A DNA stretch of 59,685 nt from a virus, in the IMG/VR virus record IMGVR_UViG_3300008110_000055, positions 1 through 59,685 of that record; one strand, given 5' to 3'. A program made the position numbers and the translations under genes. Of this stretch, positions 42,508 to 59,408 are shown piece by piece (positions within the stretch are counted from its first letter, which is position 1; every line of letters starts with the position of its first letter). The notes beneath the pieces are model-generated. The model saw only the letters and a list, made by a program, of their open reading frames with translations. It did no database searches and had not been told where the DNA came from.

Positions 42508-42759
42508 TTAGAAGTCTTGGCGACGAGGACGTCCGCGTGGCCGTGGCTTGATCTTGAAGATAGTCTGAGAATCTTCTAGCTCTTTGATCGAACCATCTTT
42601 GTTGTACTTAACTTTGGTGATAGGGCCAGTAATCACACGGCTATCTGGATTCTCTTCTGGATAGACACCCAGAACAGGGAAGTCAGGATCATCATCGAAG
42701 CCCACAATCCACATCACATCTTTGTCATCGCGGGACTTTACATTTGTAAGACGCGGCAT
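42508..42759 (-). CDS. Hypothetical protein with basic tail (83 aa)
   Basis: A small protein ending in a strongly basic RGRPRRQDF segment (AT-hook-like RPRGRPRR), so it may bind DNA. The ATG follows GAGGAGA. A TTTAC-ATTT-GTAAG palindrome lies in its first codons (42737-42750). It lies between the polymerase and the tRNA-Arg. Confidence 0.6.
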   Translation of the reverse strand: MPRLTNVKSRDDKDVMWIVGFDDDPDFPVLGVYPEENPDSRVITGPITKVKYNKDGSIKELEDSQTIFKIKPRPRGRPRRQDF

Positions 42760-42781
42760 TAGTAATTCTCCTCGGTTAAAG

Positions 42782-42858
42782 TGGCGACCCCGGAGGGACT
42801 CGAACCCCCGACCACATTCTTAGAAGGAACGTGCTCTATCCAACTGAGCTACGGGGTC
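42782..42858 (-). tRNA. tRNA-Arg (anticodon TCT)
   Basis: A complete cloverleaf: acceptor GACCCCG/CGGGGTC, D arm GCTC/GAGC, anticodon loop CTTCTAA with TCT, T arm with GTTCGAG loop, discriminator G and encoded CCA. It decodes AGA (and AGG by wobble), a codon rare in many proteobacteria but used in this phage. Confidence 0.95.
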
Positions 42859-42870
42859 ATATAATCAATA

Positions 42871-43017
42871 CTACGGGACGTTCTCTTCGTAGTCAATAGA
42901 GATGCCGAACTTGTTTAGCTCTCGCTCAGCATGAACTAACTCGTCTACATCGTTAGCGTGGAAGTACGCCCGCAGCAGACTGTCTAGGTACTCTAGCTGT
43001 TTAGTCGTCAGGTGCAT
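42871..43017 (-). CDS. Hypothetical small protein (48 aa)
   Basis: A short open frame filling the gap between the tRNA and the acidic protein: MHLTTKQLEYLDSLLRAYFH, then an acidic helical region ending IDYEENVP. It ends 13 nt before the 5' end of the tRNA gene. The helical, charged content and full use of the gap argue for a real gene. No family recognised. Confidence 0.5.
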   Translation of the reverse strand: MHLTTKQLEYLDSLLRAYFHANDVDELVHAERELNKFGISIDYEENVP

Positions 43018-43185
43018 TTAGTTAGGGCTCCAGAACTGATCGCAAACATCGTCCTCGCAGAAGTCGTCGTAGTAATCCTGATCGTACTTACCGCTATCCT
43101 CGTCCTCCTCTTCTTCCTCGCCTTCAACAAAGTCGTCAGTCAGATCGGCAAGGTACTCGTCGTAACCCGGCAGTCGATTAGTCAT
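43018..43185 (-). CDS. Hypothetical highly acidic protein (55 aa)
   Basis: The chosen start at 43185 (MTNRLPGYDEY) overlaps the stop of the upstream gene (ATGACTAA). Residues about 20-48 are almost all Glu and Asp (VEGEEEEEDEDSGKYDQDYYDD), with two Cys. Such DNA-mimic-like acidity is often seen in phage proteins that block nucleic-acid-binding host enzymes. That role is only a suggestion here. Confidence 0.55.
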   Translation of the reverse strand: MTNRLPGYDEYLADLTDDFVEGEEEEEDEDSGKYDQDYYDDFCEDDVCDQFWSPN

Positions 43186-43363
43186 ACTTAAACTTAACCT
43201 CCTTGGCAGACCAGCTAGCAATTACGTACCCGGCAAACTCCGCTTCCTTCTTCGTCTTAAAGTGTAAGGTTCGATTGATATCGCGGATACCGAGAGGACG
43301 TAGCGCCCACATATCGTAGTACCCCATGTCGCTAAAGATCTCGAACGTCATTTCGTTTTTCAT
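43178..43363 (-). CDS. Hypothetical protein (61 aa)
   Basis: A small mixed protein (FEIFSDMGYYDMWALRPLGI; AEFAGYVIASWSAKEVKF). It resembles short phage proteins that begin MKNEMTFEIF but has no assigned function. Overlaps with both neighbours point to operonic expression. Confidence 0.5.
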   Translation of the reverse strand: MKNEMTFEIFSDMGYYDMWALRPLGIRDINRTLHFKTKKEAEFAGYVIASWSAKEVKFKYD

Positions 43364-43737
43364 TTAGAGTTCCTAGCGGCGTCGATGGCGGCGATTGCCA
43401 TTCGTCGCCAGAATTCTTGTCGCATGTATCTCTCTGCATCGTAGCTATCGCCCGCTGTGAGGCTTAGGTACGTGCGGTACAAGGCCTCCATCATGTCGCT
43501 GACCTTTACGGAATTTGCTGCCAGCGCAGCGTCGCGCTCGGCCTCAAGCTCAAACAGCCTGCGGCCCCTGATAACCACCTGTTCCGCAAGCATCACCACT
43601 CGCTTTTCAAGCTCCGCGATGCGGGCGTCGGCTTCGTCCTTGGCGTACCACTTCCCGCCCGGGTCGGCGGTCATTTCGTGGCGCTCATGCCCTCCCTGCA
43701 CGTAGCTTTCAAGTGCATACCTCGTCAGTAAGGTCAT
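43360..43737 (-). CDS. Hypothetical coiled-coil protein (125 aa)
   Basis: Residues about 33-75 form a heptad-like coiled coil (DEADARIAELEKRVVMLAEQ). The C-terminus has a conserved-looking EFWRRMAIAAIDAARN. The C-rich codons and lack of CTAG differ from the older backbone and match the following 2.3 kb, marking the left end of a likely transferred module. Confidence 0.6.
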   Translation of the reverse strand: MTLLTRYALESYVQGGHERHEMTADPGGKWYAKDEADARIAELEKRVVMLAEQVVIRGRRLFELEAERDAALAANSVKVSDMMEALYRTYLSLTAGDSYDAERYMRQEFWRRMAIAAIDAARNSK

Positions 43738-44651
43738 TCGTCGTCTGCTTTCACTTTGTCGTGTCGTTGTCCCTTGAGGCGCGGCTCGCGCAGCAGGCCA
43801 TCCTCGGTGATGCCGAGTGCCTCGACCTCGAAGATTTTACCCACGGGGTTGTCGCCGTTTGGCAGTTTCATGAAGCCGTCCCACCAAGCGGACCTCTGCG
43901 GGAATGTACCGCCGCTGGCCTTGATGGTCTTGCCCTTGTAGCTGAGCACCAGCTTTCCGGCCATGCCTGCCATCTTGCCCTTGCCTTCTTCCACGCCGAC
44001 GCAGCGCAGGTCCAGCGAGATCACAGGCTTCACCTTGATGAGGCTACCGTCCGTGACGTAGCCCTTGTACCAGTGATGCTCGGGATGTCGGAGGATCAGG
44101 CCGTCGTATCCGCCTCGCTGCACCCACTTGTTCGCGCCTTCTTGCGGATCAGCGTAAGTGCCCGGGGGATAGTACGCCACAAGCTCCACAGGTGAGCCTG
44201 CGAAGTTGCCGTGGTCGAGCCGTTGCTGGAGGTGGGCGAAGCGGGTGCGGTAGGGAACATCGTGAAGCCCCATGGCGAATGATCCAGAGGGGACGATGTC
44301 ATATACGACCATGCGAAGCCCGGGAGCGGGATCGTGCTGTCGCACCATACCGCTGATAGTTGGGAACGGGACACCGTCGATCCACGCTTCTCCGAAGACA
44401 ACCCAGCCGGGGCCGTAGATGCGCTGCAAGGCGCTGCCGATGTGGGCGCAGGACTTGATCTCCTCCCCGGTTGCGGAGAGAACCTCGAAGCCGCCATCGC
44501 TCCACAGTCGCACAGCAAGGGCGCACCCGTCGTACTTGCGCTGGGCAATGTGGGTGGAGATGAGGGCGAGAAGATCACCACCGACCTCCTTCTGAAATGC
44601 GGCGGACGTTGCGTCCAACTCGCGGGGTTTCTGAATGATGTAGTCAGCCAT
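43734..44651 (-). CDS. ATP-dependent DNA ligase (305 aa)
   Basis: Seals nicks in phage DNA. The adenylation lysine is Lys39 in QRKYDGCALAV (KxDG motif I). WVVFGEAWIDG is motif III, YDGLILRHPEHHW motif IV, and LIKVKPVISLDL motif V. A C-terminal OB domain completes the enzyme. Length suits small phage ligases. The codon bias is GC-rich and unlike DNA polymerase next to it, so the ligase may have been acquired separately. It overlaps the next start (ATGGCTGA). Confidence 0.92.
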   Translation of the reverse strand: MADYIIQKPRELDATSAAFQKEVGGDLLALISTHIAQRKYDGCALAVRLWSDGGFEVLSATGEEIKSCAHIGSALQRIYGPGWVVFGEAWIDGVPFPTISGMVRQHDPAPGLRMVVYDIVPSGSFAMGLHDVPYRTRFAHLQQRLDHGNFAGSPVELVAYYPPGTYADPQEGANKWVQRGGYDGLILRHPEHHWYKGYVTDGSLIKVKPVISLDLRCVGVEEGKGKMAGMAGKLVLSYKGKTIKASGGTFPQRSAWWDGFMKLPNGDNPVGKIFEVEALGITEDGLLREPRLKGQRHDKVKADDE

Positions 44652-44754
44652 AGATGATGTAGCCTAGCAGGAAGCCAAGGAGGAAGAAGATTAGCATGCA
44701 CCATGCCAACACCTGCACTGCGCCTAGCATTAGGTCGCGGATGATCTCAGGCAT
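44644..44754 (-). CDS. Small single-pass membrane protein (36 aa)
   Basis: MPEIIRDLMLGAVQVL... reads through a strongly hydrophobic helix (AWCMLIFFLLGFLLGYII) and stops at TGA overlapping the ligase ATG. The start overlaps the stop of the preceding 42-aa gene (ATGCCTGA). Tight overlaps on both sides and a clean membrane helix support a real microprotein. Function unknown. Confidence 0.6.
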   Translation of the reverse strand: MPEIIRDLMLGAVQVLAWCMLIFFLLGFLLGYIIYG

Positions 44755-45680: not shown

Positions 45681-45996
45681 TGCAGATCTCCCTAGCTTCG
45701 TTGTAGGTGAGAGTACCTAGACACACGTTGAACCGTCCGGTACTAGTTGAGTACCACATAGCGCCCTTACCAGTGAAGTTTACAAAGTAAGAAGTGCTAC
45801 CGATCTTACCAGACCAAGCGTTACCGAACGCTGACTTCTCGAACCCAGCATCGATTAGCAAGTGAAGATCACGCTCGGTAAACGTGCGGTCTTCGTACGC
45901 TCCGTCCTGCCAGTTAGGCTCAGTGTCTAGGACGGAGACGATGTCGTTGATAGCAGCACGCAGTTTGATCTTCTCTTCAGCAGAAACAAAAGCCAT
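45670..45996 (-). CDS. Hypothetical protein (108 aa)
   Basis: Helical N-terminus (EEKIKLRAAINDIVSVL) followed by an alpha/beta domain (RTFTERDLHLLIDAGFEKSA; GAMWYSTSTGRFNVCLG). The codon use returns to the cta/gta-rich backbone style, unlike the genes downstream of it. It is the first gene after the AT-rich tract at 46.0 kb, with AGGA before its ATG. No known family. Confidence 0.55.
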   Translation of the reverse strand: MAFVSAEEKIKLRAAINDIVSVLDTEPNWQDGAYEDRTFTERDLHLLIDAGFEKSAFGNAWSGKIGSTSYFVNFTGKGAMWYSTSTGRFNVCLGTLTYNEAREICNDR

Positions 45997-45999
45997 ATG

Positions 46000-46120
46000 T
46001 TATATCCTATGTAGTATATATTACTATAGTAATATACATAGTACTATATAGTACTAGTATATATACTATACTATAGTACTAGTATATATATTACTATACT
46101 ATATACTATACTAGAAAATA
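46000..46120. repeat. Second AT-rich TATA/ACTATAGT tract
   Basis: About 120 bp of TATATA, ACTATAG and GTACTAGTAT units between the helicase stop and the 45996 gene. It uses the same word set as positions 1-117. Its location next to the DnaB-like helicase and primase genes fits a replication origin, but it could also be promoters for downstream minus-strand genes. No terminator hairpin with a T-run is seen in it. The remainder of the 45997-46145 gap has nothing else recognisable. Confidence 0.72.
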
Positions 46121-46145
46121 CTGACCAGACTACCGTCTGTCAATA

Positions 46146-47397: not shown

Positions 47398-48198
47398 TTA
47401 CGCTGGTAAACTTTCTATGAACTCGGTGAACTCTTCGTCGTCCATGTCCTTGACATCCTTCCTTCCGATCCTTATACTCAGAGGAAGGAGGTGTGAATAC
47501 TTGATTGCCTGACGCACGGCCTTGTCCTTAGCATCAGGATCGAGACTAAGAATAGCACGGCATCCAAGAGATTGCAACTCTTCAGCCATCAACTGAGTGA
47601 AGTCTCCGCCCAAGATAGCAGCAGCGTTGACACCGCTAGACGCCAAGCGAATCGCAGACGGAGCATCCTCAGTAACCACGACACGCTGGTGGGCGATGGA
47701 TGTGTCTGCTTTGTAGTACGCCAGCGCATTAGCGTTGTCGTTCTTATACGTGACTGCCTTCTTGAATCCGTCCTTCTTCTCGACCATGCGTCCGATGAAT
47801 CCACCGAACCGTCCGTCGTAAGTGTTGATCGGAATCCAGAGCCTGCCGTTACCATCGAGATCAGTGTACCACTCGATGCCAGCATCAGCACACATGCTAA
47901 CTGTCAGGTGAAACTTGGACAGGATACGAGGGTACATATCCTCAGGGATCTCGCTACGATTCACACGCGGTACAGGTTTGCGCCGTGACTTTACATCTGT
48001 AAAGCTTTTGCCGATGCAAGGAACGATGCCCTGAATACCACAGCTAGCACGATGACACTTGTAACCTAGGAAGTTGTTGTCTACTTGGAAGATGTTGAAC
48101 GTCGCCTCTCGTGTAGCCCCGCCTTCGCAGACAGGGCACACGTTAGCAGACGACGGGCCGATGCGGAGTACCTCCTCTTGCAGCCCGTTGTACTTCAT
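47398..48198 (-). CDS. DNA primase, zinc-ribbon plus TOPRIM (266 aa)
   Basis: Makes RNA primers. The N-terminal zinc ribbon is NVCPVCEGG ... YKCHRASCG (four Cys). The TOPRIM fold shows RVVVTEDAPSAIRLA (catalytic Glu) and AILSLDPDAKDKA (DxD). Length and split from the helicase are as in several phages that encode the two halves of a T7 gp4-like enzyme separately. The ATG overlaps the stop of the amidotransferase by one base. Confidence 0.88.
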   Translation of the reverse strand: MKYNGLQEEVLRIGPSSANVCPVCEGGATREATFNIFQVDNNFLGYKCHRASCGIQGIVPCIGKSFTDVKSRRKPVPRVNRSEIPEDMYPRILSKFHLTVSMCADAGIEWYTDLDGNGRLWIPINTYDGRFGGFIGRMVEKKDGFKKAVTYKNDNANALAYYKADTSIAHQRVVVTEDAPSAIRLASSGVNAAAILGGDFTQLMAEELQSLGCRAILSLDPDAKDKAVRQAIKYSHLLPLSIRIGRKDVKDMDDEEFTEFIESLPA

Positions 48199-49463
48199 CA
48201 GACTGCGGCCCGCTCGATCGTAGACTCTACAGGTCGGATGGTCGTGGTACCAATCACGGCGTGCATAGCCTTCTCCGGAATGTGAGTCTTGGCATTAGCG
48301 ACGTGGATGTTGGTGCATCCGATGATATCGCCAGACCAGATAGCCTCGGAATCCCGATAGAGTTTGTTGAACGTATCCTCGTCTCGGCCACAGTAGATGA
48401 CAAGCTTGCCCTCGTACATCAGCTTCTGAACCGAAGGAGACTTGATCTCCGTCTCAGTATCGGAAGGCCAGAAGGTACCGAACACAGTACGGGTATTCTT
48501 GTCTACCTCGCTGACAAAGAACTCTACCTTGGTACCACGAACAGCAGCGATGGTAGCAGCCAGCGTGTCATCCGCTGTAGCCACACTATCGTCAAAAGGG
48601 ACTACGTTGCTGGCAGCAGGCGCGGTGCTAGTCGTGATGAGGTTGTACTTCTGCTGGAGTTTGGCAAGATCGTCGAACGATCCGTCGTAGAGTGACGTGC
48701 TGGTAAACGAACGGCTCCACTCGATCTCCTTCTTAGAGTACGTGACCTTAGTCTCCTTGAGGTTGAGGATGTACAGAGTGTCAGCCTGCGCAGCCATGAC
48801 GTTGTTCGTGGTCTTGAGCTTGTTGCGCTCCGCCAGCCAGTGCAGCATGCCCGGCTCGCTGGCGAACAAACAGTACGTACCATCGTCCGACATGAGAGCG
48901 TGCATCGGACGGCGTCCGTTGTTGGCAACGTACATCTTGGACGGGTCGTCGTCGAAGAAGAACATTACAGAGTAAGCACCCGACAGACTGCAGAGGATCT
49001 CAGCGATCTGTGTATCACGCGCCTCGTCGTCCAGAGCAGCCGCCTCTACCAGCTTACCGAACAGCCACTCAGAGTCGGACACGTAGTCCTTGCCGAGCGT
49101 GTAACCAGACAGCGTGCCGTTATGGACACCCACGATGGAGACGTCGTACTCCTTGTTCCACAGACGGAACGGATGAGCTGCATCGACAGTGACTTCGCCC
49201 ACGGTAGCCGCACGATTGTGCCCGATAACCATGTAGGAGTGATCGACTTCGTCGAGGATAGCCTTAGTGGCACGGCTGGTAAGGAACGAAGCCGGGGCCA
49301 GCACATCCTTGTGCATCATCACGTGACTGTTGCTAGTCATGACAGCGAGACCGCAGCTATCTTCACCACGCACAGCTCCGGCGATCAGGGCATCCGATAC
49401 AAACTTATTGAGATCCTTGACCGGAGTGGGCGAGACATTGACAAGTCCGAAGATACCACACAT
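48198..49463 (-). CDS. Class II glutamine amidotransferase (GATase-fold, 421 aa)
   Basis: Begins MCGIFGLV, so Cys2 becomes the N-terminal nucleophile after Met removal. Other Ntn-type motifs are RGEDSCGLAVM, MVIGHNRAATVGEV, VHNGTLSGY and DSEWLF. It should release ammonia from glutamine or act as a related amide hydrolase/transferase. The C-terminal half (about 240-421) is unlike known synthase partners and may give the specificity. It stands at the downstream end of the amidoligase/ATP-grasp operon. Confidence 0.87.
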   Translation of the reverse strand: MCGIFGLVNVSPTPVKDLNKFVSDALIAGAVRGEDSCGLAVMTSNSHVMMHKDVLAPASFLTSRATKAILDEVDHSYMVIGHNRAATVGEVTVDAAHPFRLWNKEYDVSIVGVHNGTLSGYTLGKDYVSDSEWLFGKLVEAAALDDEARDTQIAEILCSLSGAYSVMFFFDDDPSKMYVANNGRRPMHALMSDDGTYCLFASEPGMLHWLAERNKLKTTNNVMAAQADTLYILNLKETKVTYSKKEIEWSRSFTSTSLYDGSFDDLAKLQQKYNLITTSTAPAASNVVPFDDSVATADDTLAATIAAVRGTKVEFFVSEVDKNTRTVFGTFWPSDTETEIKSPSVQKLMYEGKLVIYCGRDEDTFNKLYRDSEAIWSGDIIGCTNIHVANAKTHIPEKAMHAVIGTTTIRPVESTIERAAV

Positions 49464-49488: not shown

Positions 49489-50451
49489 TCAATAGAATTG
49501 GCGCGCCACGGTGACGGAATGATCCGACGCTTCGTCCGAATCGCCCTGGTGGCCATGCGTTGCTGCATCGACCTCGGTGCTATCCTCGAAGGCGTCATCG
49601 AACATAAGACCGCCGAGCATCACGAGCACATCGTCGCGGTGACGCATGTCGTCTTCGTCGCTTACAGAAGTAAGATTCAAGAACTCCGCATGTGCAGGCA
49701 GGTACCGAGTGATGAACTCCCGGATAGTAGCGCAGTCGCTCAAGAGCTCACGCACGTCAGCGCCAGACAACGACACCTTCTTCTGCTCAAGGCACATGTT
49801 CACCAGACCATACACTCCCTCTCGGCTAAGCCCACCAAAGTAGCGATACTCGATGGTGCCATACTTAGCAAGGGCAGTGATGTTAAAGCCGAGATAACGG
49901 TGTCCACCGACGAGCTGCTGAACAGCGCTATCGCACGGACGGTTGGTGACGTTAGTAGTCAGCAGACGGCTAGCCGCGAGCGACACAGCGTAGCAGTTAG
50001 CTTCGCGATGGGTGCCTGCAGTACCTACCACATACGGCTCCACGATAGCGGCAAGGGCCAGCGTGCGGGCCACCTGATCAGACGTGGTATCCGAGTAGTT
50101 GATGTGGACGTGAGTGGAAGTACGGACAGAATCTTCCAGCCCGTTGGCTGCCTTGATCTCGAACATCGCATCGATAGCAGTGCAGGCAGCCTCACCAAAC
50201 AAGGGCTGAGAGAACACCAGCTCGATGCCATTGCGCAGGCTGCCGTCGCCGTGAGGCGTGACAAGCGCACGATTGATCAGCGAGTTACTGCCCCAGTAAC
50301 GCAGACGATCCCCGCGAATGTTCATGTCCGGCTGCTCAAGCTCCAGCTCAACGCCTACATATTCAGTAGGAAGGGCCAGTTGAGCCGAGCCGCGCTGCTC
50401 GATACCGACGCGGCGAGTAACACCGAACATATCATGAATAGTCACAGGCAT
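49489..50451 (-). CDS. Amidoligase-fold (glutamine-synthetase-like) protein 1 (320 aa)
   Basis: Predicted ATP-dependent amide ligase of the phage/bacterial amidoligase family. Motifs match this family: VGVELELE (about 31-38, metal/ATP Glu), PHGDGSLRNGIELVF (about 64-78), THVHINYSD (about 115-123), TIEYRYFGG (about 204-212) and REGVYGLVNM. A Lys- or Arg-rich second half follows. Its product would be an amide bond between an amine and a carboxyl group, but substrates are unknown. It overlaps the unknown 242-aa gene by 10 nt. Confidence 0.85.
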   Translation of the reverse strand: MPVTIHDMFGVTRRVGIEQRGSAQLALPTEYVGVELELEQPDMNIRGDRLRYWGSNSLINRALVTPHGDGSLRNGIELVFSQPLFGEAACTAIDAMFEIKAANGLEDSVRTSTHVHINYSDTTSDQVARTLALAAIVEPYVVGTAGTHREANCYAVSLAASRLLTTNVTNRPCDSAVQQLVGGHRYLGFNITALAKYGTIEYRYFGGLSREGVYGLVNMCLEQKKVSLSGADVRELLSDCATIREFITRYLPAHAEFLNLTSVSDEDDMRHRDDVLVMLGGLMFDDAFEDSTEVDAATHGHQGDSDEASDHSVTVARQFY

Positions 50452-53009: not shown

Positions 53010-53579
53010 TTACTTAGCGAGATTACCGTACATGGAGTAGTATCCACGGTACGATCCATTAGAGAACCAGCGGCCCTCGTGCCACTGACCGATGCTCTCG
53101 TTTACAATTGTAAGACTAGCATCCGGATGGATGATAGCGAACTTGTTGTAGCCGATAGCCTTTCCGATGACGAGCTTCTCGCGTTCGAGGATCTCCTTAG
53201 TCAGCAGGGTACCATACTTCTCGATGAACAACTGAGTGTCCGACTTGGTTGCATCGTACATGTCAGCACCACGAAGCACACCATTGTGTGCGAGCGCCGA
53301 TCCGTCCGGCAAACGGAACGGATGGGTACGTTCCTTATCAGTCAGGCCGTGGGTACGGATGCGGAAGTGGATGACGAACGGAGTACTGGCACCATGCTTA
53401 GCCATCAAAGACTTAAGCGAGCGCATGAATTCTTCCTTGGTCATGAACCCCTTGCGGATCTTGACCACACCGTTCTGCGCATAGGCGAATCCACCGCCGT
53501 CACCGTTCGAGTCCCAGCAATTGTTCAGTTCTTCTTCACTGATCGTCTTGCCTGCGGGTACAACTGCGATGATACACAT
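53010..53579 (-). CDS. Second class II amidotransferase/hydrolase (189 aa)
   Basis: Begins MCIIAVVPAG with Cys2 as N-terminal nucleophile. Motifs: NGDGGGFAYAQNG, FVIHFRIRTHGL, THPFRLPDGSALAHNGVL and KSDTQLFIE, as in class II amidotransferases; the family relation to the 421-aa protein is visible in the HFRIRTHG/IGHNRAAT and AHNGVL/VHNGTL segments. It is much shorter, a nearly pure Ntn domain, so it may be a free glutaminase or a peptidase. A palindrome (53580-53592) ends next to its ATG. Confidence 0.85.
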   Translation of the reverse strand: MCIIAVVPAGKTISEEELNNCWDSNGDGGGFAYAQNGVVKIRKGFMTKEEFMRSLKSLMAKHGASTPFVIHFRIRTHGLTDKERTHPFRLPDGSALAHNGVLRGADMYDATKSDTQLFIEKYGTLLTKEILEREKLVIGKAIGYNKFAIIHPDASLTIVNESIGQWHEGRWFSNGSYRGYYSMYGNLAK

Positions 53580-53592
53580 CTTACTCAGTAAC
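53580..53592 (-). promoter_or_regulatory. TTAC-N3-GTAA palindrome at amidotransferase start
   Basis: On the coding strand this reads GTTAC-TGA-GTAAG immediately followed by the ATG of the 189-aa amidotransferase. The upstream gene's stop (TGA) lies inside it. Confidence 0.7.
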
Positions 53593-53808
53593 CTCTAGCT
53601 TGCGATAGATAGTGTTGAGAGTCTCGAACTCCACGAGCTTCGTTACTTCATCGTCGTACTTGACACGCACGATAATGGAGGTAGTCACATCGTCCTCGTC
53701 ACCAAGTCGCGGATGACCCTTGACTCCGCTCAGTCGGGCGCGGATACCTTCACCAGCCACGTCGATGAATCCGCGAACCTTACTGAAGTAAACAACAGGC
53801 TTGCTCAT
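53581..53808 (-). CDS. Hypothetical protein upstream of amidotransferase (75 aa)
   Basis: Start ATG 53808 (MSKPVVYFSKVRG) with GGAG upstream is chosen. The protein has KGHPRLGDEDDVTTSIIVRV, a probable beta hairpin, and a charged C-terminus. It ends 1 nt before the amidotransferase start and lies just downstream of a sigma-70 promoter, so it probably leads the amidoligase operon. No family recognised. Confidence 0.6.
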   Translation of the reverse strand: MSKPVVYFSKVRGFIDVAGEGIRARLSGVKGHPRLGDEDDVTTSIIVRVKYDDEVTKLVEFETLNTIYRKLEVTE

Positions 53809-53836: not shown

Positions 53837-53865
53837 ATTATACGCTAGGCACTAGGCGTTGTCAA
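53837..53865 (-). promoter_or_regulatory. Sigma-70 promoter for the amidoligase operon
   Basis: Reading leftward: -35 TTGACA (53865-53860), 17-nt spacer, -10 TATAAT (53842-53837). Both hexamers are consensus. The first downstream gene starts at 53808, about 30 bases from the -10. The spacer and the 3' end of the upstream gene contain CGCCTAG/GCCTAGCG repeats. Confidence 0.9.
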
Positions 53866-54364
53866 GTCGATTGATTCCCCACTTAAGCTCTGCCTCTCGC
53901 AGTTTGCCGAGAGCAATGGCTTGAGTGACGCGCTCCATTGCTACCTTCAAGGCAGTCTCACTATCAGACGCAATGACTAGCGTGCTGGCATTCCATCCAA
54001 CGATAGAATGCCGACCATCGCCGTAGAACTTAACCTCTTTCCCGAAAAATACATCACCCTCAGTGTGCTGCTTTACAGCGTAATCCTCAAACACACCGCC
54101 GAGTTTCGGCCCATAGTTCCCACCTACCCGATAGTCAATAGGTAGTACAATCGGAAATAGAATCTGCTTAGCGTAGATGTTAAACACCTTAGAACCTGCC
54201 GGATATTTAGGCTCGGGGTACTGAGGGTCTAGATCGAACTCCTCGATCTCATAATCACCGCGACTAGCAGCCACAGCCTTCTCGGCTAGCTCCCTCGTCG
54301 TGAAGATGCAGTGGACTTGGTAATCGGAGTACTCTCCAGAACTTACAGCGTAACAGATAGGCAC
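53852..54364 (-). CDS. Hypothetical protein (170 aa)
   Basis: GTG start at 54364 with AAGGAG upstream, inside a TTAC palindrome. The opening CYAVSSGEYSDYQVHCIFTT followed by ELAEKAVAAS is a pattern I associate with phage proteins annotated only as hypothetical. The C-terminus overlaps the promoter at 53.85 kb. The middle (IVLPIDYRVGGNYGPK) is beta-rich. Confidence 0.65.
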   Translation of the reverse strand: MPICYAVSSGEYSDYQVHCIFTTRELAEKAVAASRGDYEIEEFDLDPQYPEPKYPAGSKVFNIYAKQILFPIVLPIDYRVGGNYGPKLGGVFEDYAVKQHTEGDVFFGKEVKFYGDGRHSIVGWNASTLVIASDSETALKVAMERVTQAIALGKLREAELKWGINRLDNA

Positions 54365-54367
54365 GGC

Positions 54368-54580
54368 CTACTCCTTACTAGTGTAAGAAATCAGAGCGTT
54401 AACCTCAGCTCTACGTTGGCACACGACGGCGTGACCTCGCGGCAGAGGGTGAACGTTCTGCTCTACGATAGATGCCGCATTCTCGCAAGCCTTCTTGTCG
54501 TAGAATTTACCGTGGACCTTAGCCGGTAAGCCTCGGTCCGTCACAGTCATCAGCACAAACACGATAGCCACGCTATACAT
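54368..54580 (-). CDS. Hypothetical secreted or membrane-anchored protein (70 aa)
   Basis: The N-terminus MYSVAIVFVLMTVTDRG is a short hydrophobic segment that may be a signal or anchor. Two Cys (ACENAAS, VVCQRR) suggest a disulphide outside the cytoplasm. The stop and last codons lie in a palindrome preceding the next gene. Confidence 0.55.
   Translation of the reverse strand: MYSVAIVFVLMTVTDRGLPAKVHGKFYDKKACENAASIVEQNVHPLPRGHAVVCQRRAEVNALISYTSKE
54374..54387 (-). promoter_or_regulatory. TTAC-N4-GTAA palindrome before 54364 gene
   Basis: CTTAC-TAGT-GTAAG on the plus strand. On the coding strand it reads into GTAAGGAGTAGGCCGTG, so the Shine-Dalgarno of the next gene directly follows the palindrome. 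Confidence 0.7.
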
Positions 54581-54596
54581 TAGCTTACTCCTTCAA

Positions 54597-55004
54597 TTAC
54601 ACAGTCTCGTACTGCCAGTCCGTATCAACCCAGCGCACGAAAGAATCGTGACGCTCAGCACCGCCGATAACACCACTCTCCTCCTCGCTTACACTGTAAG
54701 GACGGGACACGGTACGGACGCGGTAGTCGCCATTAACGCAAGCGATATACCGTCGGTAGCCGACAGTCTTGATCTCGACCGGCTTGACACGATACTCCCA
54801 GTGATCCGCGAAAGCCGGCGTACACTTGCCTCGAACTTCTGCCGGAGTTTCTAGATCAACCCACGTGTCTGACGCACTGATACGGAACTGACAACGAACT
54901 CCGTCTGCCCACGCCTTGATAACCTCGGCGTGCTTGTGAGGCTTAGGAGTGCACGCGGCCCGCTTCATCAGGCAGTGACACGCATCGTAATTGCAAGGAC
55001 ACAT
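54597..55004 (-). CDS. Hypothetical protein, FxxWxDxxW C-terminal family (135 aa)
   Basis: Cys-rich N-terminus (MCPCNYDACHCLMKRAAC), then HAEVIKAWADGVRCQFRI and WEYRVKPVEI, a combination common in phage proteins of unknown role. The C-terminus (VGYRRYIACVNGDYRV ... DSFVRWVDTDWQYETV) is related to the ends of the genes at 56511 and 56876, so it is one of three paralogous modules. A TTAC palindrome lies inside (54688-54700). Confidence 0.65.
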   Translation of the reverse strand: MCPCNYDACHCLMKRAACTPKPHKHAEVIKAWADGVRCQFRISASDTWVDLETPAEVRGKCTPAFADHWEYRVKPVEIKTVGYRRYIACVNGDYRVRTVSRPYSVSEEESGVIGGAERHDSFVRWVDTDWQYETV

Positions 55005-55024
55005 TATCAGTTACTCCTAGTCCA

Positions 55025-55228
55025 TTGATTGCAGCGAGTGTGGTGAGAAGTGATCGGAACGTAAACGTTACCGCTCTTGACCATTGTGGTACTCGTGTAG
55101 CGCTGCGTGCCATTGAGGCCGGCCTGAAGGGCGATGCCGAAGCACTGTGGGTGGCAAAGCTACTGCTCACCGCAGACGTAGGGTCGTCTCGTGTCCTGAC
55201 GCCGCCCTGTCCAACCACCCGTCATTGA
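55025..55228 (+). CDS. Uncertain lone plus-strand ORF (67 aa)
   Basis: The 237-nt gap 55005-55241 has no convincing minus-strand gene. The plus-strand frame from TTG 55025 contains gene-like helical text (RVALRAIEAGLKGDAEALW), ending RVLTPPCPTTRH. A short hairpin, ACCCGTC-ATT-GACGGGT, overlaps its end at about 55210-55226. No good ribosome site is seen. It may be a degenerate or acquired fragment, or a small RNA locus. Confidence 0.25.
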   Translation: MIAASVVRSDRNVNVTALDHCGTRVALRAIEAGLKGDAEALWVAKLLLTADVGSSRVLTPPCPTTRH

Positions 55229-55241
55229 CGGGTCGCGAGCT

Positions 55242-55841
55242 TCACCGTCGCTCAAGCCACCAAGTCGTGAAGGCCTTTAGGTTCGCGTGCTGCGAATCGA
55301 CGTCGGCCAGCTCCACGCCGACGTTTGGCGATCCGTTCGACTCTCTCAGGATCAGCGCTTTGTGGACGTCCGCCGAGAGACCACGATGGTACGGAAGGAA
55401 ATCGTCGACGAAAGCGGCGGGCATCAGTCGCTCGATAGCGTCACGTTTGGGACTAACGTCATGCCCGGCGCCAGCGGTCACAATCACGTGATCGATGGGA
55501 AAGCCAAGCGCCAACAGGTTGTGTCGGCGAGCTTCAGCAAAGGCCTCATCCAACGCGGTGACACAGACCAGTCGGTAGCCCTCGTCGGCCAACTGATTGC
55601 ACGCTTCCACGGCGCCATCGATCGCTGGGATCGTTGACCAGAACTCTTCGTTGAACTCAGATCGAAAGCGCGTCAGCGATTCGCCCGAGAGGCGCTCCAC
55701 CGCCCAGTGATCCATGGGCCAGTAGGCATCCGGATCTCGAAGCGCTGGGAGTTTGCCAAACGCCTTTTCCCACGCATTGGCGTAAGCGGCGTTGTAGTCG
55801 AGAAGCACACCGTCGGCATCCAATGCGATAGTCCTGGACAT
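55242..55841 (-). CDS. HAD-family 5'(3')-deoxyribonucleotidase-like (199 aa)
   Basis: Probably dephosphorylates (deoxy)nucleoside monophosphates. The HAD motif I is LDADGVLLDYN, with the two catalytic Asp in DxD; motif II VCVTALDE, then VSPKRDAI with Lys and a C-terminal AAFVDDFLPYH (DD of motif IV). DNA here is GC-rich with no CTAG, like the 43-45 kb block, suggesting recent acquisition. ATTAC-TTGA-GTAAG ends at its start codon. Confidence 0.85.
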   Translation of the reverse strand: MSRTIALDADGVLLDYNAAYANAWEKAFGKLPALRDPDAYWPMDHWAVERLSGESLTRFRSEFNEEFWSTIPAIDGAVEACNQLADEGYRLVCVTALDEAFAEARRHNLLALGFPIDHVIVTAGAGHDVSPKRDAIERLMPAAFVDDFLPYHRGLSADVHKALILRESNGSPNVGVELADVDSQHANLKAFTTWWLERR

Positions 55842-55853
55842 TACTTGAGTAAG
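55840..55853 (-). promoter_or_regulatory. TTAC-N4-GTAA palindrome at nucleotidase start
   Basis: On the coding strand this reads CTTAC-TCAA-GTAAT with the ATG of the nucleotidase starting in its last two bases (GTAATG). Confidence 0.7.
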
Positions 55854-55855
55854 AG

Positions 55856-56164
55856 TTAGTTACGTGCGCCGTACTTCGAGAGCAGACGATCCACACCACG
55901 CGCACTTTCGGTAGCACGCGGCGCATTGGCCGGAGCATTGCGGCGCACGATGGCCCAATCACCGAGCGCGAACAGCCCGTCCTTGCCGTCCTGATCCAGA
56001 CCATGCAGGCGACCGACCATGACGTAGGACTTGGGCGAGATGATCCACTTGCGCTCGAACTTCTTGCGCTTGGGATTGAACACGATCGTACCCATCTTCT
56101 CGATCGGGGTGAAGACTTCGCCGTTGCGAACCTGCGTCACGGGAATGGTGATGAAGTTACTCAT
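55856..56164 (-). CDS. Hypothetical protein (102 aa)
   Basis: N-terminal FITIPVTQVRNGEVFTPIEK, basic centre (NPKRKKFERKWIISPKSYVM) and Ala/Arg-rich end. The ATG lies inside a GTTAC-TCAT-GTAAG palindrome, a clear case where the motif covers the start codon. No family recognised. Gene order suggests early expression. Confidence 0.6.
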   Translation of the reverse strand: MSNFITIPVTQVRNGEVFTPIEKMGTIVFNPKRKKFERKWIISPKSYVMVGRLHGLDQDGKDGLFALGDWAIVRRNAPANAPRATESARGVDRLLSKYGARN

Positions 56165-56169
56165 GTAAG
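56156..56169 (-). promoter_or_regulatory. TTAC-N4-GTAA palindrome covering a start codon
   Basis: Coding-strand reading is CTTAC-ATGA-GTAAC, with the ATG of the 102-aa gene forming the palindrome centre. Regulation of initiation by structure or by a bound protein would be direct here. Confidence 0.75.
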
Positions 56170-56176
56170 ATTCTCC

Positions 56177-56371
56177 TCAGACCGGGAAGCTGGAGTTGTT
56201 GGCGCTCTTGTTCTGCTGCCACGCGGCACGCGCAGCCTTGCGGCTGGCATTGCGCTGAGCGTTGCCATTGCGCGCATCCTTGGCAGTCTTGCCGACGCGC
56301 TTACGCTTCTCGTTGTGGGGATTCTTGTAGTCCGAGGCGAGGTTGATCGGACGCGAGGAGAACATGCTCAT
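56177..56371 (-). CDS. Hypothetical basic protein (64 aa)
   Basis: Start ATG 56371 (MSMFSSRPINLASDYKN) with AGAAGG upstream. Later residues are Arg/Lys/Ala/Asn-rich (KRKRVGKTAKDARNGNAQRN), suggesting nucleic-acid binding. It lies just downstream of a sigma-70 promoter. Confidence 0.55.
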   Translation of the reverse strand: MSMFSSRPINLASDYKNPHNEKRKRVGKTAKDARNGNAQRNASRKAARAAWQQNKSANNSSFPV

Positions 56372-56425
56372 CTCAGGTGTAACCTTCTGGAATACTAGCA
56401 AGGCGCTAGCCCGGCACGCTCTCAC

Positions 56426-56439
56426 CTTACAACTGTAAG
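56426..56439 (-). promoter_or_regulatory. TTAC-N4-GTAA palindrome in 5' leader
   Basis: CTTAC-AACT-GTAAG lies between the promoter at 56.49 kb and the 56371 start, so it is transcribed in the 5' leader. A longer symmetric flank (GCTCTTAC ... GTAAGAGC on both strands, partially) extends the possible hairpin. Confidence 0.65.
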
Positions 56440-56475
56440 AGCGTGGTGCGGCTGGTTCCTCGATTTTGTGGGACT

Positions 56476-56504
56476 ATTATACGCTAGGCTAGAGGTGAAG
56501 TCAA
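56476..56504 (-). promoter_or_regulatory. Sigma-70 promoter
   Basis: -35 TTGACT (56504-56499), 17-nt spacer, -10 TATAAT (56481-56476). Flanks are nearly identical to those of the promoter at 58.25 kb (TTGACTTCACC and TATAATAGTCCCAC), indicating a duplicated promoter cassette. Confidence 0.9.
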
Positions 56505-56510
56505 GCGGAC

Positions 56511-56873
56511 TTACTTCGGCGTGACCTCAATCTCGGACGTGATCCAGTCCTTGTCCACCCAGCCGATGAAGTTTTCGCTAGTCTCCCAGCGATTCACCAC
56601 GGCCTGACTGACAGCAAGGCCGGTATTTGTCTCGCCTCGGAGGTTGCGGAACATAAAGCGACGGTACTTCTCACTCGTCACCTTGACCGGAGCCGGGCGA
56701 AGTTCATCCTCGCTCGACCACGCTGACCCGTGCACTCCGCCCGGATTCAGGGGATCAATGAGTACCAGCAGTGGATACTCGCCCCTGTTAGGATCAACGA
56801 ACAACACCGTAGCTTGGCGATTGAAGGCCGCACAAACTACACGATCACCGACCTTGTACTTGGTATTGCACAT
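56511..56873 (-). CDS. Hypothetical protein, FxxWxDxxW family (120 aa)
   Basis: Start 56873 (MCNTKYKVGDRVV) follows GGAGGTG; the longer ORF is rejected. N-terminus KVGDRVVCAAFNRQATVLFV resembles a small SH3/KOW-like barrel. C-terminal YRRFMFRNLRG ... ENFIGWVDKDWITSEIEV matches the gene beside it (56876) and one at 54597. Unknown function, but clearly a duplicated family. Confidence 0.65.
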   Translation of the reverse strand: MCNTKYKVGDRVVCAAFNRQATVLFVDPNRGEYPLLVLIDPLNPGGVHGSAWSSEDELRPAPVKVTSEKYRRFMFRNLRGETNTGLAVSQAVVNRWETSENFIGWVDKDWITSEIEVTPK

Positions 56874-56875
56874 GA

Positions 56876-57241
56876 TTACACCTCCACTTCGATGGTCTGC
56901 CACTCTTCGTCGATCCACTTGATGAAGTCGTCCCGGTCGACGCGCCATCGTCCGTTCTCGCGGTACATAGCGAGCACGGGCTCGTCCATGTGATCCTTCC
57001 ACAGAAACCGCTTGTACCGGAACGTCTTGGTCGGACGCTTCTCGCGGACAAGGGACATCTTACCGCCGTAAGTACTCTCCCCGTCCTCCTTGTACCAAGC
57101 CGTCCTCTCGTTGTCAGTACTGGCATCGACCACACCGAGAAACGGGCGGCTTCCCCATCCTTTGTAAACTAAGATGACCGGACAACCTTCGCCGTTGACG
57201 TAAGTCTTGCCGACTTCAAGCTGGAGCTTTTCAGTACACAT
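56876..57241 (-). CDS. Hypothetical protein, FxxWxDxxW family (121 aa)
   Basis: Paralogue of the 56511 gene: N-terminal LEVGKTYVNGEGCPVILVYK barrel-like segment and C-terminal YKRFLWKDHMDEP ... RDDFIKWIDEEWQTIEVEV. Ends 2 nt before the start of its paralogue, consistent with tandem duplication and divergence. Preceded by a CTTAC-TCCG-GTAAG palindrome. Confidence 0.65.
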   Translation of the reverse strand: MCTEKLQLEVGKTYVNGEGCPVILVYKGWGSRPFLGVVDASTDNERTAWYKEDGESTYGGKMSLVREKRPTKTFRYKRFLWKDHMDEPVLAMYRENGRWRVDRDDFIKWIDEEWQTIEVEV

Positions 57242-57247
57242 TGTTTT

Positions 57248-57261
57248 CTTACTCCGGTAAG
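57248..57261 (-). promoter_or_regulatory. TTAC-N4-GTAA palindrome before 57241 gene
   Basis: CTTAC-TCCG-GTAAG (plus strand), 7 nt before the ATG at 57241. On the coding strand the ribosome site is CGGAG within the palindrome. Confidence 0.75.
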
Positions 57262-57262
57262 G

Positions 57263-57622
57263 TTACAGGTTTTCCTCGATCCAGTTGGCGATGCGCTTGA
57301 ATCCCCAGCGCTTGCCGTTGGTGCCGACGTCGTTTACTTCGGCCAAGAACTCACGCACTTGGTACAAGCTATCGTCAGCGGCTTGGCCGAGAACGTCATA
57401 CACCCCGAGCTTGCGCTCGGTTTTGACCGTCATCATGCAGAACGACTCGCCACGATGCGGGTCTACGTCGATGCGTCCATTGTCCAGCACGTGCTGGAGC
57501 ACGCCGAGGCAACAGAACCCCCCATTGAAATCGGTGAGTCGGTCTTGGCACTGGTTGTACTCGCCGGAGCGAAGGGCCTTGACCCACTTGTTCTTGATGC
57601 GCTTGGGCAGCTTGATCTTCAT
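57263..57622 (-). CDS. Conserved phage protein, FCCLGVL family (119 aa)
   Basis: Pattern KWVKALRSGEYNQC ... GGFCCLGVLQHVLDN ... RWGFKRIANWIEENL is shared by many phage proteins of unknown function. The Cys pair in FCCLG is the hallmark. Start ATG 57622 is preferred; GTG 57628 is possible. A CTTAC-TCCT-GTAAG palindrome lies 12 nt upstream of 57622. Confidence 0.7.
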   Translation of the reverse strand: MKIKLPKRIKNKWVKALRSGEYNQCQDRLTDFNGGFCCLGVLQHVLDNGRIDVDPHRGESFCMMTVKTERKLGVYDVLGQAADDSLYQVREFLAEVNDVGTNGKRWGFKRIANWIEENL

Positions 57623-57633
57623 TGTCACGATTC

Positions 57634-57647
57634 CTTACTCCTGTAAG
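57634..57647 (-). promoter_or_regulatory. TTAC-N4-GTAA palindrome before 57622 gene
   Basis: CTTAC-TCCT-GTAAG (plus strand). On the coding strand AGGAGTAAGGAATC provides the likely ribosome-binding site inside or just after the palindrome. Confidence 0.75.
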
Positions 57648-57649
57648 AT

Positions 57650-57979
57650 TTAAGCGTGCTGGTTTTCCAGCATGGACGGATTCCACAGACACTCAGACCA
57701 CGCCACGACCTTTCGCCCATCGTCGATGATGGGTTCGAGCTGGTCAGGCCTAGGCGTAAAGCAGATGGTATCGGTGCGGAACCTTGCTCGCTCGTTTGCA
57801 GAGGCTCTCTTGAGCACCTTGTTACCGTCATGCAAAACTTCACACACCGTGACAACATTCGGATAAGACTGCACCGTGGCTACGCACTTGATGCCCGTGA
57901 CAGTCACTACCTTCCCTACCATATCAGGGAATCCGATCGACCACTTTACCCTGTAAGATTTTCCGACTTCGACTTTCAT
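57650..57979 (-). CDS. Hypothetical protein, barrel-like N-terminus (109 aa)
   Basis: N-terminus KVEVGKSYRVKWSIGFPDMV and VVTVTGIKCVATV resemble the small barrel of the neighbouring paralogues (KVGDRVV, EVGKTYV), but the C-terminal FxxWxDxxW module is absent. Codons for SYRVK contain a TTTAC-CCT-GTAAG palindrome. Start may be ATG 57979 or GTG 57982, after GGGAG. Confidence 0.6.
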   Translation of the reverse strand: MKVEVGKSYRVKWSIGFPDMVGKVVTVTGIKCVATVQSYPNVVTVCEVLHDGNKVLKRASANERARFRTDTICFTPRPDQLEPIIDDGRKVVAWSECLWNPSMLENQHA

Positions 57980-58029
57980 CACGCTTTCACTCCCTTAGTT
58001 GCTCTGCAACGCTTGGGGTACCTGCACAA

Positions 58030-58209
58030 TCATGCGCGTACCCCCATGCGATCGCGGCTCGCCACGATAGACGCCCGCCAGTCCCGCTCGCTGCGCTTGT
58101 GGGCCTTCTTCTCCTCGACCGCCACGAAAGCGGCCTGCTTCCAAGGATGGGTTGCTTTCGGCTTCTTTACTTTGTAAGGTTTGAACCCGAAGAATTCACG
58201 GATAGTCAC
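58030..58209 (-). CDS. Hypothetical basic protein (59 aa)
   Basis: GTG start at 58209 with TTGGAGAAC upstream, directly behind the promoter at 58.25 kb. Sequence is Lys/Arg/Trp-rich (MTIREFFGFKPYKVKKPKAT; ERDWRASIVASRDRMG). The PYKV codons are again a TTAC-N3-GTAA palindrome. Too short for a family call. Confidence 0.55.
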   Translation of the reverse strand: MTIREFFGFKPYKVKKPKATHPWKQAAFVAVEEKKAHKRSERDWRASIVASRDRMGVRA

Positions 58210-58237
58210 TACACGTTCTCCAACTTTTGGTGGGACT

Positions 58238-58266
58238 ATTATACGGAGGATCTAGGGTGAAGTCAA
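58238..58266 (-). promoter_or_regulatory. Sigma-70 promoter
   Basis: -35 TTGACT (58266-58261), 17-nt spacer, -10 TATAAT (58243-58238), followed by AGTCCCACC. Same flanks as the 56.49 kb promoter. It overlaps the last codons of the 58460 gene and serves the 58209 gene and those downstream. Confidence 0.9.
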
Positions 58267-58460: not shown

Positions 58461-58464
58461 GGCG

Positions 58465-58478
58465 CTTACTCCAGTAAG
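58465..58478 (-). promoter_or_regulatory. TTAC-N4-GTAA palindrome before 58460 gene
   Basis: CTTAC-TCCA-GTAAG, identical in all 14 bases to the copy at 58598-58611. On the coding strand it reads CTTACTGGAGTAAG, with GGAG as possible ribosome site at its centre. Confidence 0.78.
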
Positions 58479-58484
58479 ATTCGG

Positions 58485-58592
58485 TTAGTCGAGGTGGATC
58501 GGTTCCCAGCCCATCGCCACCCACACGGCAGCGAGGACGGCATAGGCCACGCAAAGCGTCAGCAAAATCAGTTTAGCGCGACGATTGTTCAC
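58485..58592 (-). CDS. Small single-pass membrane protein (35 aa)
   Basis: A GTG start (58592), with GGAG just upstream, reads MNNRRAKLILLTLCVAYAVL... through one hydrophobic helix to MGWEPIHLD. Positive residues at the N-terminus suggest an N-in topology. Flanked by two identical palindromes. Likely an early membrane microprotein. Confidence 0.55.
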   Translation of the reverse strand: MNNRRAKLILLTLCVAYAVLAAVWVAMGWEPIHLD

Positions 58593-58597
58593 TCCAG

Positions 58598-58611
58598 CTT
58601 ACTCCAGTAAG
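58598..58611 (-). promoter_or_regulatory. TTAC-N4-GTAA palindrome before 58592 gene
   Basis: CTTAC-TCCA-GTAAG, six nucleotides before the GTG start of the membrane microprotein. Between this and the 58683 stop (58612-58682) there is no gene; CTAGCG/CCCTAGCGCT short repeats occur there. Confidence 0.78.
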
Positions 58612-58682
58612 AAACCGGGTCAAGGTGCCCGAGCTAGAGCCCGCGATTCACCCGCAGGCCCTAGCGTCTGGAACCCTAGCGC

Positions 58683-59276
58683 TTAGGCTTCATCCGCCAT
58701 GTCGAGGGACTCGGCCGCATCGCGGGCGAGGGAGCGCTCGATGCTGTACTCCGCGTAGGCGTTGTGGATCGCGGATTCAGCGTGCGACCAGTCGAAGCCC
58801 GCCGCGTCCATCTCGCGCAGGTAGCCAAACAGCTCGGCCAGCTTGCCGGAGACGGCCGGGCCAGCGGAGACCGGCTCAGTCGTACCCTCACCATCGCCAC
58901 CTTCGCCACCCTCGCCCGAATCGCCACCGCTACGCGGGCCACGCGGGGCCGATTCCTTGAGCGGATAGGCGAGGCGACGCGCCTGCCCGTACTCCCCCGG
59001 AAGCGTGCCGCCGTCCTTCAGGATCTTGTTGACAGCAGCGCACACCTGCCCGATCGACCCTTCCGCAGCGGTAATGGACGGGTCATCCTTCACCAACTGC
59101 TTATACGCCTTGAGCAAGTACTTGACGTGGGCCAGCTCACGCCCCGCGACGGTCTTACGGATCGCCTGATACACCACGTCCATCACGCCAGCGGCGGCGA
59201 TGATCGACTCTCGCGTATCCGTGAAGAGACCCACGGCGACGCCTTCCAGCACCTTAGCTTCATTCTTGCCGATCAT
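58683..59276 (-). CDS. Hypothetical first right-arm protein (197 aa)
   Basis: First gene behind the rightmost promoter, so presumably early and strongly expressed. Helical N-terminal domain (about 1-95, KVLEGVAVGLFTDTRESIIA), a low-complexity Gly/Glu linker (about 112-132, SGGDSGEGGEGGDGEG), and a helical acidic C-terminus. Unrecognised. Position suggests a host-takeover function, which is inference. Confidence 0.65.
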   Translation of the reverse strand: MIGKNEAKVLEGVAVGLFTDTRESIIAAAGVMDVVYQAIRKTVAGRELAHVKYLLKAYKQLVKDDPSITAAEGSIGQVCAAVNKILKDGGTLPGEYGQARRLAYPLKESAPRGPRSGGDSGEGGEGGDGEGTTEPVSAGPAVSGKLAELFGYLREMDAAGFDWSHAESAIHNAYAEYSIERSLARDAAESLDMADEA

Positions 59277-59286
59277 GACTAATTTC

Positions 59287-59299
59287 CTTACAGAGTAAG
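59287..59299 (-). promoter_or_regulatory. TTAC-N3-GTAA palindrome before first right-arm gene
   Basis: CTTAC-AGA-GTAAG. Coding-strand reading CTTACTCTGTAAGGAAATT gives the Shine-Dalgarno (TAAGGAA) as its right edge, about 8 nt before the ATG at 59276. Confidence 0.78.
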
Positions 59300-59352
59300 A
59301 GGGTATGCGACCCCCGGCGCTTATCCGCTAGCGGATTTGCTAGCTTGGTATC

Positions 59353-59381
59353 ATTCTAGACTAGGCTTTTGGCTTTGTCAA
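59353..59381 (-). promoter_or_regulatory. Sigma-70 promoter at right end
   Basis: -35 TTGACA (59381-59376), 17-nt spacer, -10 TAGAAT (59358-59353). It points left into the whole right arm. A 14-bp palindrome ATCCGCTAGCGGAT (about 59323-59336) sits just downstream, in a position suited to an operator. A TTAC palindrome (59395-59408) lies just upstream of the -35. Confidence 0.88.
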
Positions 59382-59394
59382 CCCGCCTCGTTTT

Positions 59395-59408
59395 CTTACT
59401 TTGGTAAG
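59395..59408. promoter_or_regulatory. TTAC-N4-GTAA palindrome upstream of rightmost promoter
   Basis: CTTAC-TTTG-GTAAG lies 14 nt upstream of the -35 box, outside any gene and outside the transcript from that promoter. This copy argues that at least some copies act as DNA sites and not only as RNA hairpins. Confidence 0.65.

Follow-up and report, generated by a model that had tools for sequence, protein, structure and literature searches.

The window analyzed here, the 59,685-base freshwater phage contig IMGVR_UViG_3300008110_000055 taken at its full length, carries 41 copies of the short palindrome TTAC-N3/4-GTAA, about 1.4 being expected. We interpret these copies, with slightly more confidence than doubt, as operators dispersed through the genome and bound by a symmetric protein, encoded by the phage, that would control early transcription. 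Together with the private palindromes of related phages, including the cultured StenR_269, they suggest that a regulatory protein of the phage acts through many scattered sites, an arrangement not reported before. A literature search brought up no previous account of palindromic operators dispersed in phage genomes, and the StenR_269 genome paper is silent on such sites.

The contig, which may be incomplete, has its late genes on the plus strand (1–30.2 kb) and its early and replication genes on the minus strand (30.3–59.7 kb). Recognized genes encode terminase, portal, capsid, polymerase, primase, helicase, ligase, and ribonucleotide reductase, and an amidoligase/glutamine-amidotransferase cluster is also present.

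Abundance and Sharpness of the Palindrome

The two spacings contribute 12 copies (TTACN3GTAA) and 29 copies (TTACN4GTAA), compared with means of 0.68 (maximum 4) and 0.76 (maximum 3), respectively, in dinucleotide shuffles. The enrichment over shuffled sequence proposed by a first-pass annotation of this DNA is thereby confirmed. Other spacings are rare, with 0, 2, and 0 copies at spacings 0, 1, and 2, and 0, 0, and 2 copies at spacings 5, 6, and 7; across the scanned range of 0–12, the highest count after 3 and 4 was 4 copies, at spacing 11. No one-mismatch form of either arm was clearly enriched in the window and symmetric double variants showed no enrichment, so the motif is sharp. The preceding base is C in 28 of the 41 copies and the following base is G in 23, which widens the motif, less strictly and nearly symmetrically, to (T)CTTAC-N3/4-GTAAG; this extension had been called common in the first pass, correctly. 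The loops share no consensus.

The density rises toward the right end, as had been claimed: 29 of the 41 copies lie right of 42.7 kb (42737–59408), six at 30.4–42.5 kb, and six farther left. The 23 right-arm positions listed by the first-pass annotation are all correct to within one base, but its total was too low, with further copies at 45780, 46021, 48965, 51758, 53780, and 57060. Its statements that the left arm holds only two copies and that 30.4–42.5 kb holds none do not stand, since six were found in each (13406, 16162, 20291, 22400, 24255, and 24575; 32343, 34757, 36545, 39025, 40718, and 42063). About two thirds of the window copies are within genes. Coding copies occupy both frames that avoid a TAA stop (the 12-mers split 11 and 8), and codon usage is therefore not the cause of the motif.

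Two further leads were considered and rejected. General selection for hairpins was ruled out, because symmetric variants and wobble forms are unenriched. An excess of CTAG-N8-CTAG was dropped, the CTAG frequency being about what its trinucleotides predict.

Selection on the Sites

The sites are under selection. The close relative G001, an IMG/VR contig whose DNA polymerase is 95% identical and whose aligned DNA is 89% identical, covers much of the window between 1 and 43.4 kb, and the conservation tests apply to this part, not to the densest region (44–59.7 kb), whose genes retrieved no close relatives. Thirteen window sites could be aligned in G001; 10 are wholly unchanged, one differs only in the loop, and two are lost, while G001 has additional sites. 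All stem bases are kept at 11 of the 13 sites, versus 28 of 54 control pairs of TTAC and GTAA separated by other distances. Where a codon is conserved, its third position within the stem is identical in 27 of 28 instances, against a codon-matched expectation of 21.5 (P = 0.005). Conservation in related phages, on which the first-pass annotation had staked its proposal, is thus seen at about 89% DNA identity, whereas individual positions turn over at about 74% (relative G030, best-aligned part) while the word persists: some sites persist there with an altered loop, others have been lost, and still others have newly appeared.

Association with Promoters and Gene Starts

Promoters were identified as sigma-70-like consensus matches and gene starts were picked by simple rules; several of the gene-neighborhood tests are based on our own open reading frame (ORF) calls. 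A site lies 25–70 nucleotides (nt) downstream of the −10 element at six of the nine minus-strand right-arm promoters (0.67 expected), and the best four right-arm promoters all have one. The outermost good promoter, 59381, has one site 14 nt before its −35 element and another 55 nt after its −10 element. Eight of the 29 right-arm sites overlap a start codon or end at most 15 nt upstream of one (0.96 expected), in line with the at least eight such copies noted earlier, and the palindrome at 56157 indeed contains the ATG. At some of these sites, the ribosome site falls in the loop or the 3′ arm. Both windows were chosen after seeing the data, so the P values (0 of 5000 circular shifts as high for promoters, 0 of 5000 random shifts as high for start codons) are somewhat optimistic. 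Proximity to start codons also arises because the sites sit in very short intergenic gaps, which weakens a reading as translation control. Two identical 14-mers (CTTACTGGAGTAAG, 58466 and 58599) flank a 35-codon ORF (58485–58592, minus), as had been described.

The promoters include:
59353–59381, minus strand: early promoter-like TTGACA-17-TAGAAT, flanked by sites 59396 and 59288
59456–59484, minus strand: weaker promoter-like TTGCTA-17-TATAGT
58238–58266, minus strand: early promoter-like TTGACT-17-TATAAT
56476–56504, minus strand: early promoter-like TTGACT-17-TATAAT
53837–53865, minus strand: early promoter-like TTGACA-17-TATAAT

Promoters 56504 and 58266 are near copies and 53865 is similar (TTGACttcaCC...GTATAATagTCCCAC), forming a small promoter family at 53837–58266 on the minus strand.

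The sites, from exact motif matches and with strand undefined, are:
13406–13417, TTACAGTTGTAA: late gene; unchanged in G001; at the matching position in G030 with the loop changed
16162–16173, TTACAGATGTAA: late gene; unchanged in G001
20291–20302, TTACTCCGGTAA: giant late gene; lost in G001
22400–22411, TTACTTGGGTAA: giant late gene
24255–24266, TTACATGAGTAA: giant late gene
24575–24586, TTACTGAAGTAA: giant late gene; stems kept and loop changed in G030
32343–32353, TTACTCTGTAA: in a gene
34757–34768, TTACATCAGTAA: in a gene; lost in G001
36545–36556, TTACATAAGTAA: ribonucleotide reductase gene, 3′ part
39025–39036, TTACTGTTGTAA: ribonucleotide reductase gene, 5′ part
40718–40729, TTACTCAGGTAA: DNA polymerase gene
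42063–42073, TTACATTGTAA: DNA polymerase gene
42738–42749, TTACATTTGTAA: just inside an 83-aa ORF
45780–45790, TTACAAAGTAA: in a gene
46021–46032, TTACTATAGTAA: AT-rich leader; may be a chance match
47398–47409, TTACGCTGGTAA: primase stop and helicase ribosome site
47991–48002, TTACATCTGTAA: primase gene
48965–48975, TTACAGAGTAA: glutamine amidotransferase-like gene
49662–49673, TTACAGAAGTAA: amidoligase-like gene
50851–50861, TTACGCTGTAA: in a gene
51373–51384, TTACCGCTGTAA: in a gene
51758–51769, TTACGGATGTAA: gene matching the PHROG 'ribosomal protein S6 glutaminyl transferase'
53102–53113, TTACAATTGTAA: in a gene
53581–53591, TTACTCAGTAA: stop codon and next start
53780–53791, TTACTGAAGTAA: 46 nt past the −10 of promoter 53865
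54073–54083, TTACAGCGTAA: in a gene
54343–54353, TTACAGCGTAA: early in a gene
54375–54386, TTACTAGTGTAA: joined to a TAAGGAG ribosome site
54689–54699, TTACACTGTAA: in a gene
55841–55852, TTACTTGAGTAA: overlaps an ATG start
56157–56168, TTACTCATGTAA: contains an ATG start
56427–56438, TTACAACTGTAA: 38 nt past the −10 of promoter 56504
57060–57071, TTACCGCCGTAA: in a gene
57249–57260, TTACTCCGGTAA: between genes; GGAG on the minus strand
57635–57646, TTACTCCTGTAA: between genes; AGGAG on the minus strand
57946–57956, TTACCCTGTAA: early in a gene
58167–58177, TTACTTTGTAA: 61 nt past the −10 of promoter 58266
58466–58477, TTACTCCAGTAA: between genes; 14-mer identical to the 58599 copy
58599–58610, TTACTCCAGTAA: ahead of the 35-codon ORF
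59288–59298, TTACAGAGTAA: 55 nt past the −10 of promoter 59381; joined to the ribosome site of the first early gene
59396–59407, TTACTTTGGTAA: 14 nt upstream of the −35 of promoter 59381; about 49 nt past the −10 of the weaker promoter 59484

Private Palindromes in Related Phages

Relatives were scanned for over-represented dyads, and many carry their own, different palindrome of about 12–17 bp in a layout similar to that of the window. These are GTTTAACGTTAAAC in StenR_269 (10–11 copies), TTAACNGTTAA in G006 (6), GCGTTAACNGTTAACGC in G010 (5–6), CTTAACATGTTAAG in G012 (8–9), TCACACGTGTGA in G013 and G017 (13 and 11), GTAGTTTAAACTAC in G018 (12–13), TTGCTANNTAGCAA in G027 (9–13), and TATAC-N2/3-GTATA (GTATACATGTATAC) in Vibrio phages 1.209.O, 1.139.A, and 1.015.O (13–15). 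The scan found no dyad in T7, lambda, N4, or HMO-2011, and it picked up TM4, which is known for ESAS repeats. The CACCC-GGGTG dyads of G025 and G028 were dropped as mostly tandem repeats inside genes.

Most of the relatives' sites fall within the early region, and intergenic enrichment is seen in the majority of the phages that allowed a test; in the Vibrio phages, for example, the order is stop codon, palindrome, ribosome site, and start. Where the early region begins in G017 and G018, a promoter-like stretch is, by eye, likewise bracketed by sites. Two adjacent spacings are allowed in the window (3/4), in the Vibrio phages (2/3), and in G012 (2/3). The symmetry of the relatives' words extends through the would-be loop (ACGT, CATG, TTAA, A-NN-T), which makes double-stranded DNA a likelier target than RNA. 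VpV262 (6 copies) and Vibrio phage 1.070.O (4 copies) share the word AAAGTNACTTT despite their different host genera, Vibrio and Enterovibrio, whereas V. breoganii phages use another word. The word accordingly follows phage lineage more than host, favoring a phage-encoded binder.

In Vibrio phage 1.209.O (L226), ATTTACAC(C)TGTAAAT occurs three times in close succession at 43549–43619, near the genome end. This second dyad word has the TTAC-N3/4-GTAA core of the window, and similarly placed TTAC-N3/4-GTAA copies occur in 1.015 and 1.139. The same phage contains GATC once in 43.7 kb versus about 145 expected, a strong avoidance; in the window, GATC does not rank with the most strongly avoided words.

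Search for the Binding Protein

Pfam and PHROG were used to scan 54 window proteins, most of them small (25 best PHROG families listed), and 29 larger ones were compared with PHROGs; no stoperator-type immunity repressor family was found, although divergent proteins could be missed. Neither an integrase nor a known repressor was present among the scanned window proteins, and no recombinase-like protein was detected. The families shared by dyad-bearing phages comprise only replication, structural, and amidoligase-cluster genes, which are present also in phages without a dyad. A 68-aa protein common to G013 and G017, which use the same word, was rejected as a candidate, having no homologue in the other dyad phages. 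One candidate, and only that, is the first early gene of the window, whose product has no homologue in phage records or viral contigs:
58683–59276, minus strand: first early gene, 197-aa orphan with two sites ahead

Proposed Mechanism and Alternatives

In the operator model, a protein that is probably dimeric would bind double-stranded DNA, recognizing the half-site (C)TTAC and its inverted copy and tolerating 3 or 4 bp between the half-sites. Where bound copies flank strong early promoters or closely follow them, initiation or the first stage of elongation would be blocked. Copies at gene junctions or within early genes would serve as road-blocks to elongation, damping early transcription as the binder accumulates. 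Related phages would use the same arrangement with diverged half-sites.

The motif might instead act as RNA, in which case a CUUAC-N3/4-GUAAG stem-loop in the nascent transcript, bound by a phage protein, would serve as a nut-like antitermination element, as a site of messenger RNA processing, or as a translational operator covering the ribosome site. A loop of 3 or 4 nt suits a hairpin, as do the size of the motif and its tolerance of loop length. The sites lie at about +30 to +60 after promoters, in gene leaders, and in eight cases at start codons, the loop or 3′ arm sometimes holding the ribosome site, and several sites of relatives lie beside terminators and transfer RNA genes. However, G-U wobble forms are absent from the right arm (0 versus about 3.2 expected) and the flanking pair has no sense-strand bias (T..G 5 versus C..A 7), both counts being small. 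Furthermore, the would-be loop of the relatives is self-complementary and conserved, some sites precede promoters, the terminator-adjacent sites fall on both sides (7 and 4), and two thirds of the copies are within genes. We therefore regard the hairpin as unlikely, though it deserves attention, and DNA appears from these sequence features considerably more probable than RNA as the target. The first-pass annotation had offered both an operator for a phage regulator and an RNA hairpin controlling translation; the former gains support and the latter is weakened. Hairpin promoters of the N4 type for a phage (virion) RNA polymerase come to mind because the 2226-aa late protein of the window belongs to one family with a StenR_269 protein suspected to be such a polymerase. 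They are very improbable: unlike the N4 hairpins, which lie just upstream of the transcript start, the window sites share bases with the ribosome sites and start codons of the genes they would serve, dyads also occur in phages whose giant protein is outside that family (G012, G013, G017, G018, and VpV262), and the early genes already have sigma-70-like promoters.

A nucleoid-type or segregation protein of the host or the phage could also organize or protect the incoming DNA, with density rather than exact position being what matters. The density peak at one end, the copies within coding sequence, and the turnover of positions at 74% identity would fit, but the strong link to promoters and gene starts and a word that tracks phage lineage more than host make this improbable. 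A by-product of codon or word bias, or the recent spread of a mobile repeat, can be given practically no weight: Markov and shuffle controls refute it, flanks and loops are unrelated among the copies, both stop-free frames are used, and synonymous positions are conserved.

Several points besides the small wobble and flank counts weigh against the operator model. Most window copies are within genes, unlike classical operators. Adding or removing 1 bp of spacing turns the half-sites by about 34 degrees relative to each other, a shift that few dimers tolerate. About half of the relatives show no dyad; G007, G008, G011, G016, and G021–G024 have none that the scan could detect. No convincing helix-turn-helix regulator emerged from the Pfam and PHROG scans of the 54 mostly small proteins, and the structure model of the first early protein is not usable (pLDDT 46).

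Comparison with Known Systems

Control of phage genes through dispersed binding sites is familiar chiefly from temperate phages (mycobacteriophages, SP-beta). The lambda boxB/nut element has a 5-bp stem and a short conserved loop, and occurs in few copies close behind early promoters. The window motif likewise has a 5-bp stem and a short loop close behind early promoters, but its loop is free, its copies number 41, one of them is clearly before the main early promoter, and the wobble or compensatory forms expected of an RNA element are not enriched in the window. GalR binds gal-type operators that flank the promoter at about −60 and +53; the sites of the main early promoter are similarly centered near −55 and +53, although only this outermost early promoter is flanked in such a manner.

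Cluster A stoperators (L5, TipsytheTRex) are asymmetric 13-mers bound by a monomer in one orientation, with a specificity that varies between phages (PMC9283540); the repressor bound to them halts elongation. The window resembles them in its more than 20 short sites spread over the genome, which occur at promoters and in small spaces between genes, although the majority of window copies are intragenic, and it differs in that its site is a two-fold palindrome with no orientation, two spacings, and a frequent location inside genes. SPBRE of SP-beta is a dispersed 15-bp phage-specific element in about 10 prophage promoter regions, bound by the tyrosine-recombinase-fold repressor MrpR (PMC10516654). 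The likeness lies in the dispersed, phage-specific element, which for SPBRE was later shown to be the master repressor site; unlike SPBRE, the window has 41 copies, most of them away from promoters, and its scanned proteins include no recombinase-like one. The SAS and ESAS repeats of cluster K occur in 11–19 copies at the translation starts of a gene subset, about half with inverted repeats; SAS is the asymmetric 13-mer GGGATAGGAGCCC overlapping the ribosome site, and ESAS are imperfect 17-bp repeats with a variable spacer (PMC3203893). The window shares the tie to translation starts (8 of 29 right-arm sites), but its sequence differs and its palindrome is exact and short. In its presumed working, the motif comes closest to cluster A stoperators and SPBRE/MrpR. 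It lacks a defining feature of each of these three systems, hence it belongs to none of them and is classed with dispersed phage operators.

A podophage group that includes the cultured StenR_269, Vibrio phages 1.209.O, 1.139.A, and 1.015.O, and VpV262 bears lineage-specific words. A tentative extension of the operator model, with the chances rather against it, is that VpV262/StenR_269-type podophages share a family-wide system, in which lineage-specific, symmetric, spacing-tolerant operators would be matched by a fast-diverging, unrecognized class of DNA-binding protein, amounting to orientation-free 'stoperators' with no sign of lysogeny. The words provide ready bait for an undescribed class of phage regulators. 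Being sharp and private to each lineage, the sites also offer a natural experiment in which a DNA-binding protein changes together with dozens of sites.

Additional Features of the Window

A minus-strand insertion (37308–38929) splits the ribonucleotide reductase gene into two halves and is missing from G001. It contains a group I intron (Rfam RF00028, 37864–38098) and a LAGLIDADG endonuclease ORF (38112–38834). The terminase large subunit ORF (878 aa, 4707–7343) has about 1,028 additional bases at 5016–6043 that are missing in G001 and keep the frame open; this stretch looks like an intein. Many of these phages encode, beside their DNA polymerase gene, a 180-aa protein not assigned to a family (40041–40583, minus, in the window), possibly a single-strand binding protein. 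The 83-aa protein adjoining the DNA polymerase (42508–42759, minus) ends in an AT-hook-like RPRGRPRRQDF and is kept in G001.

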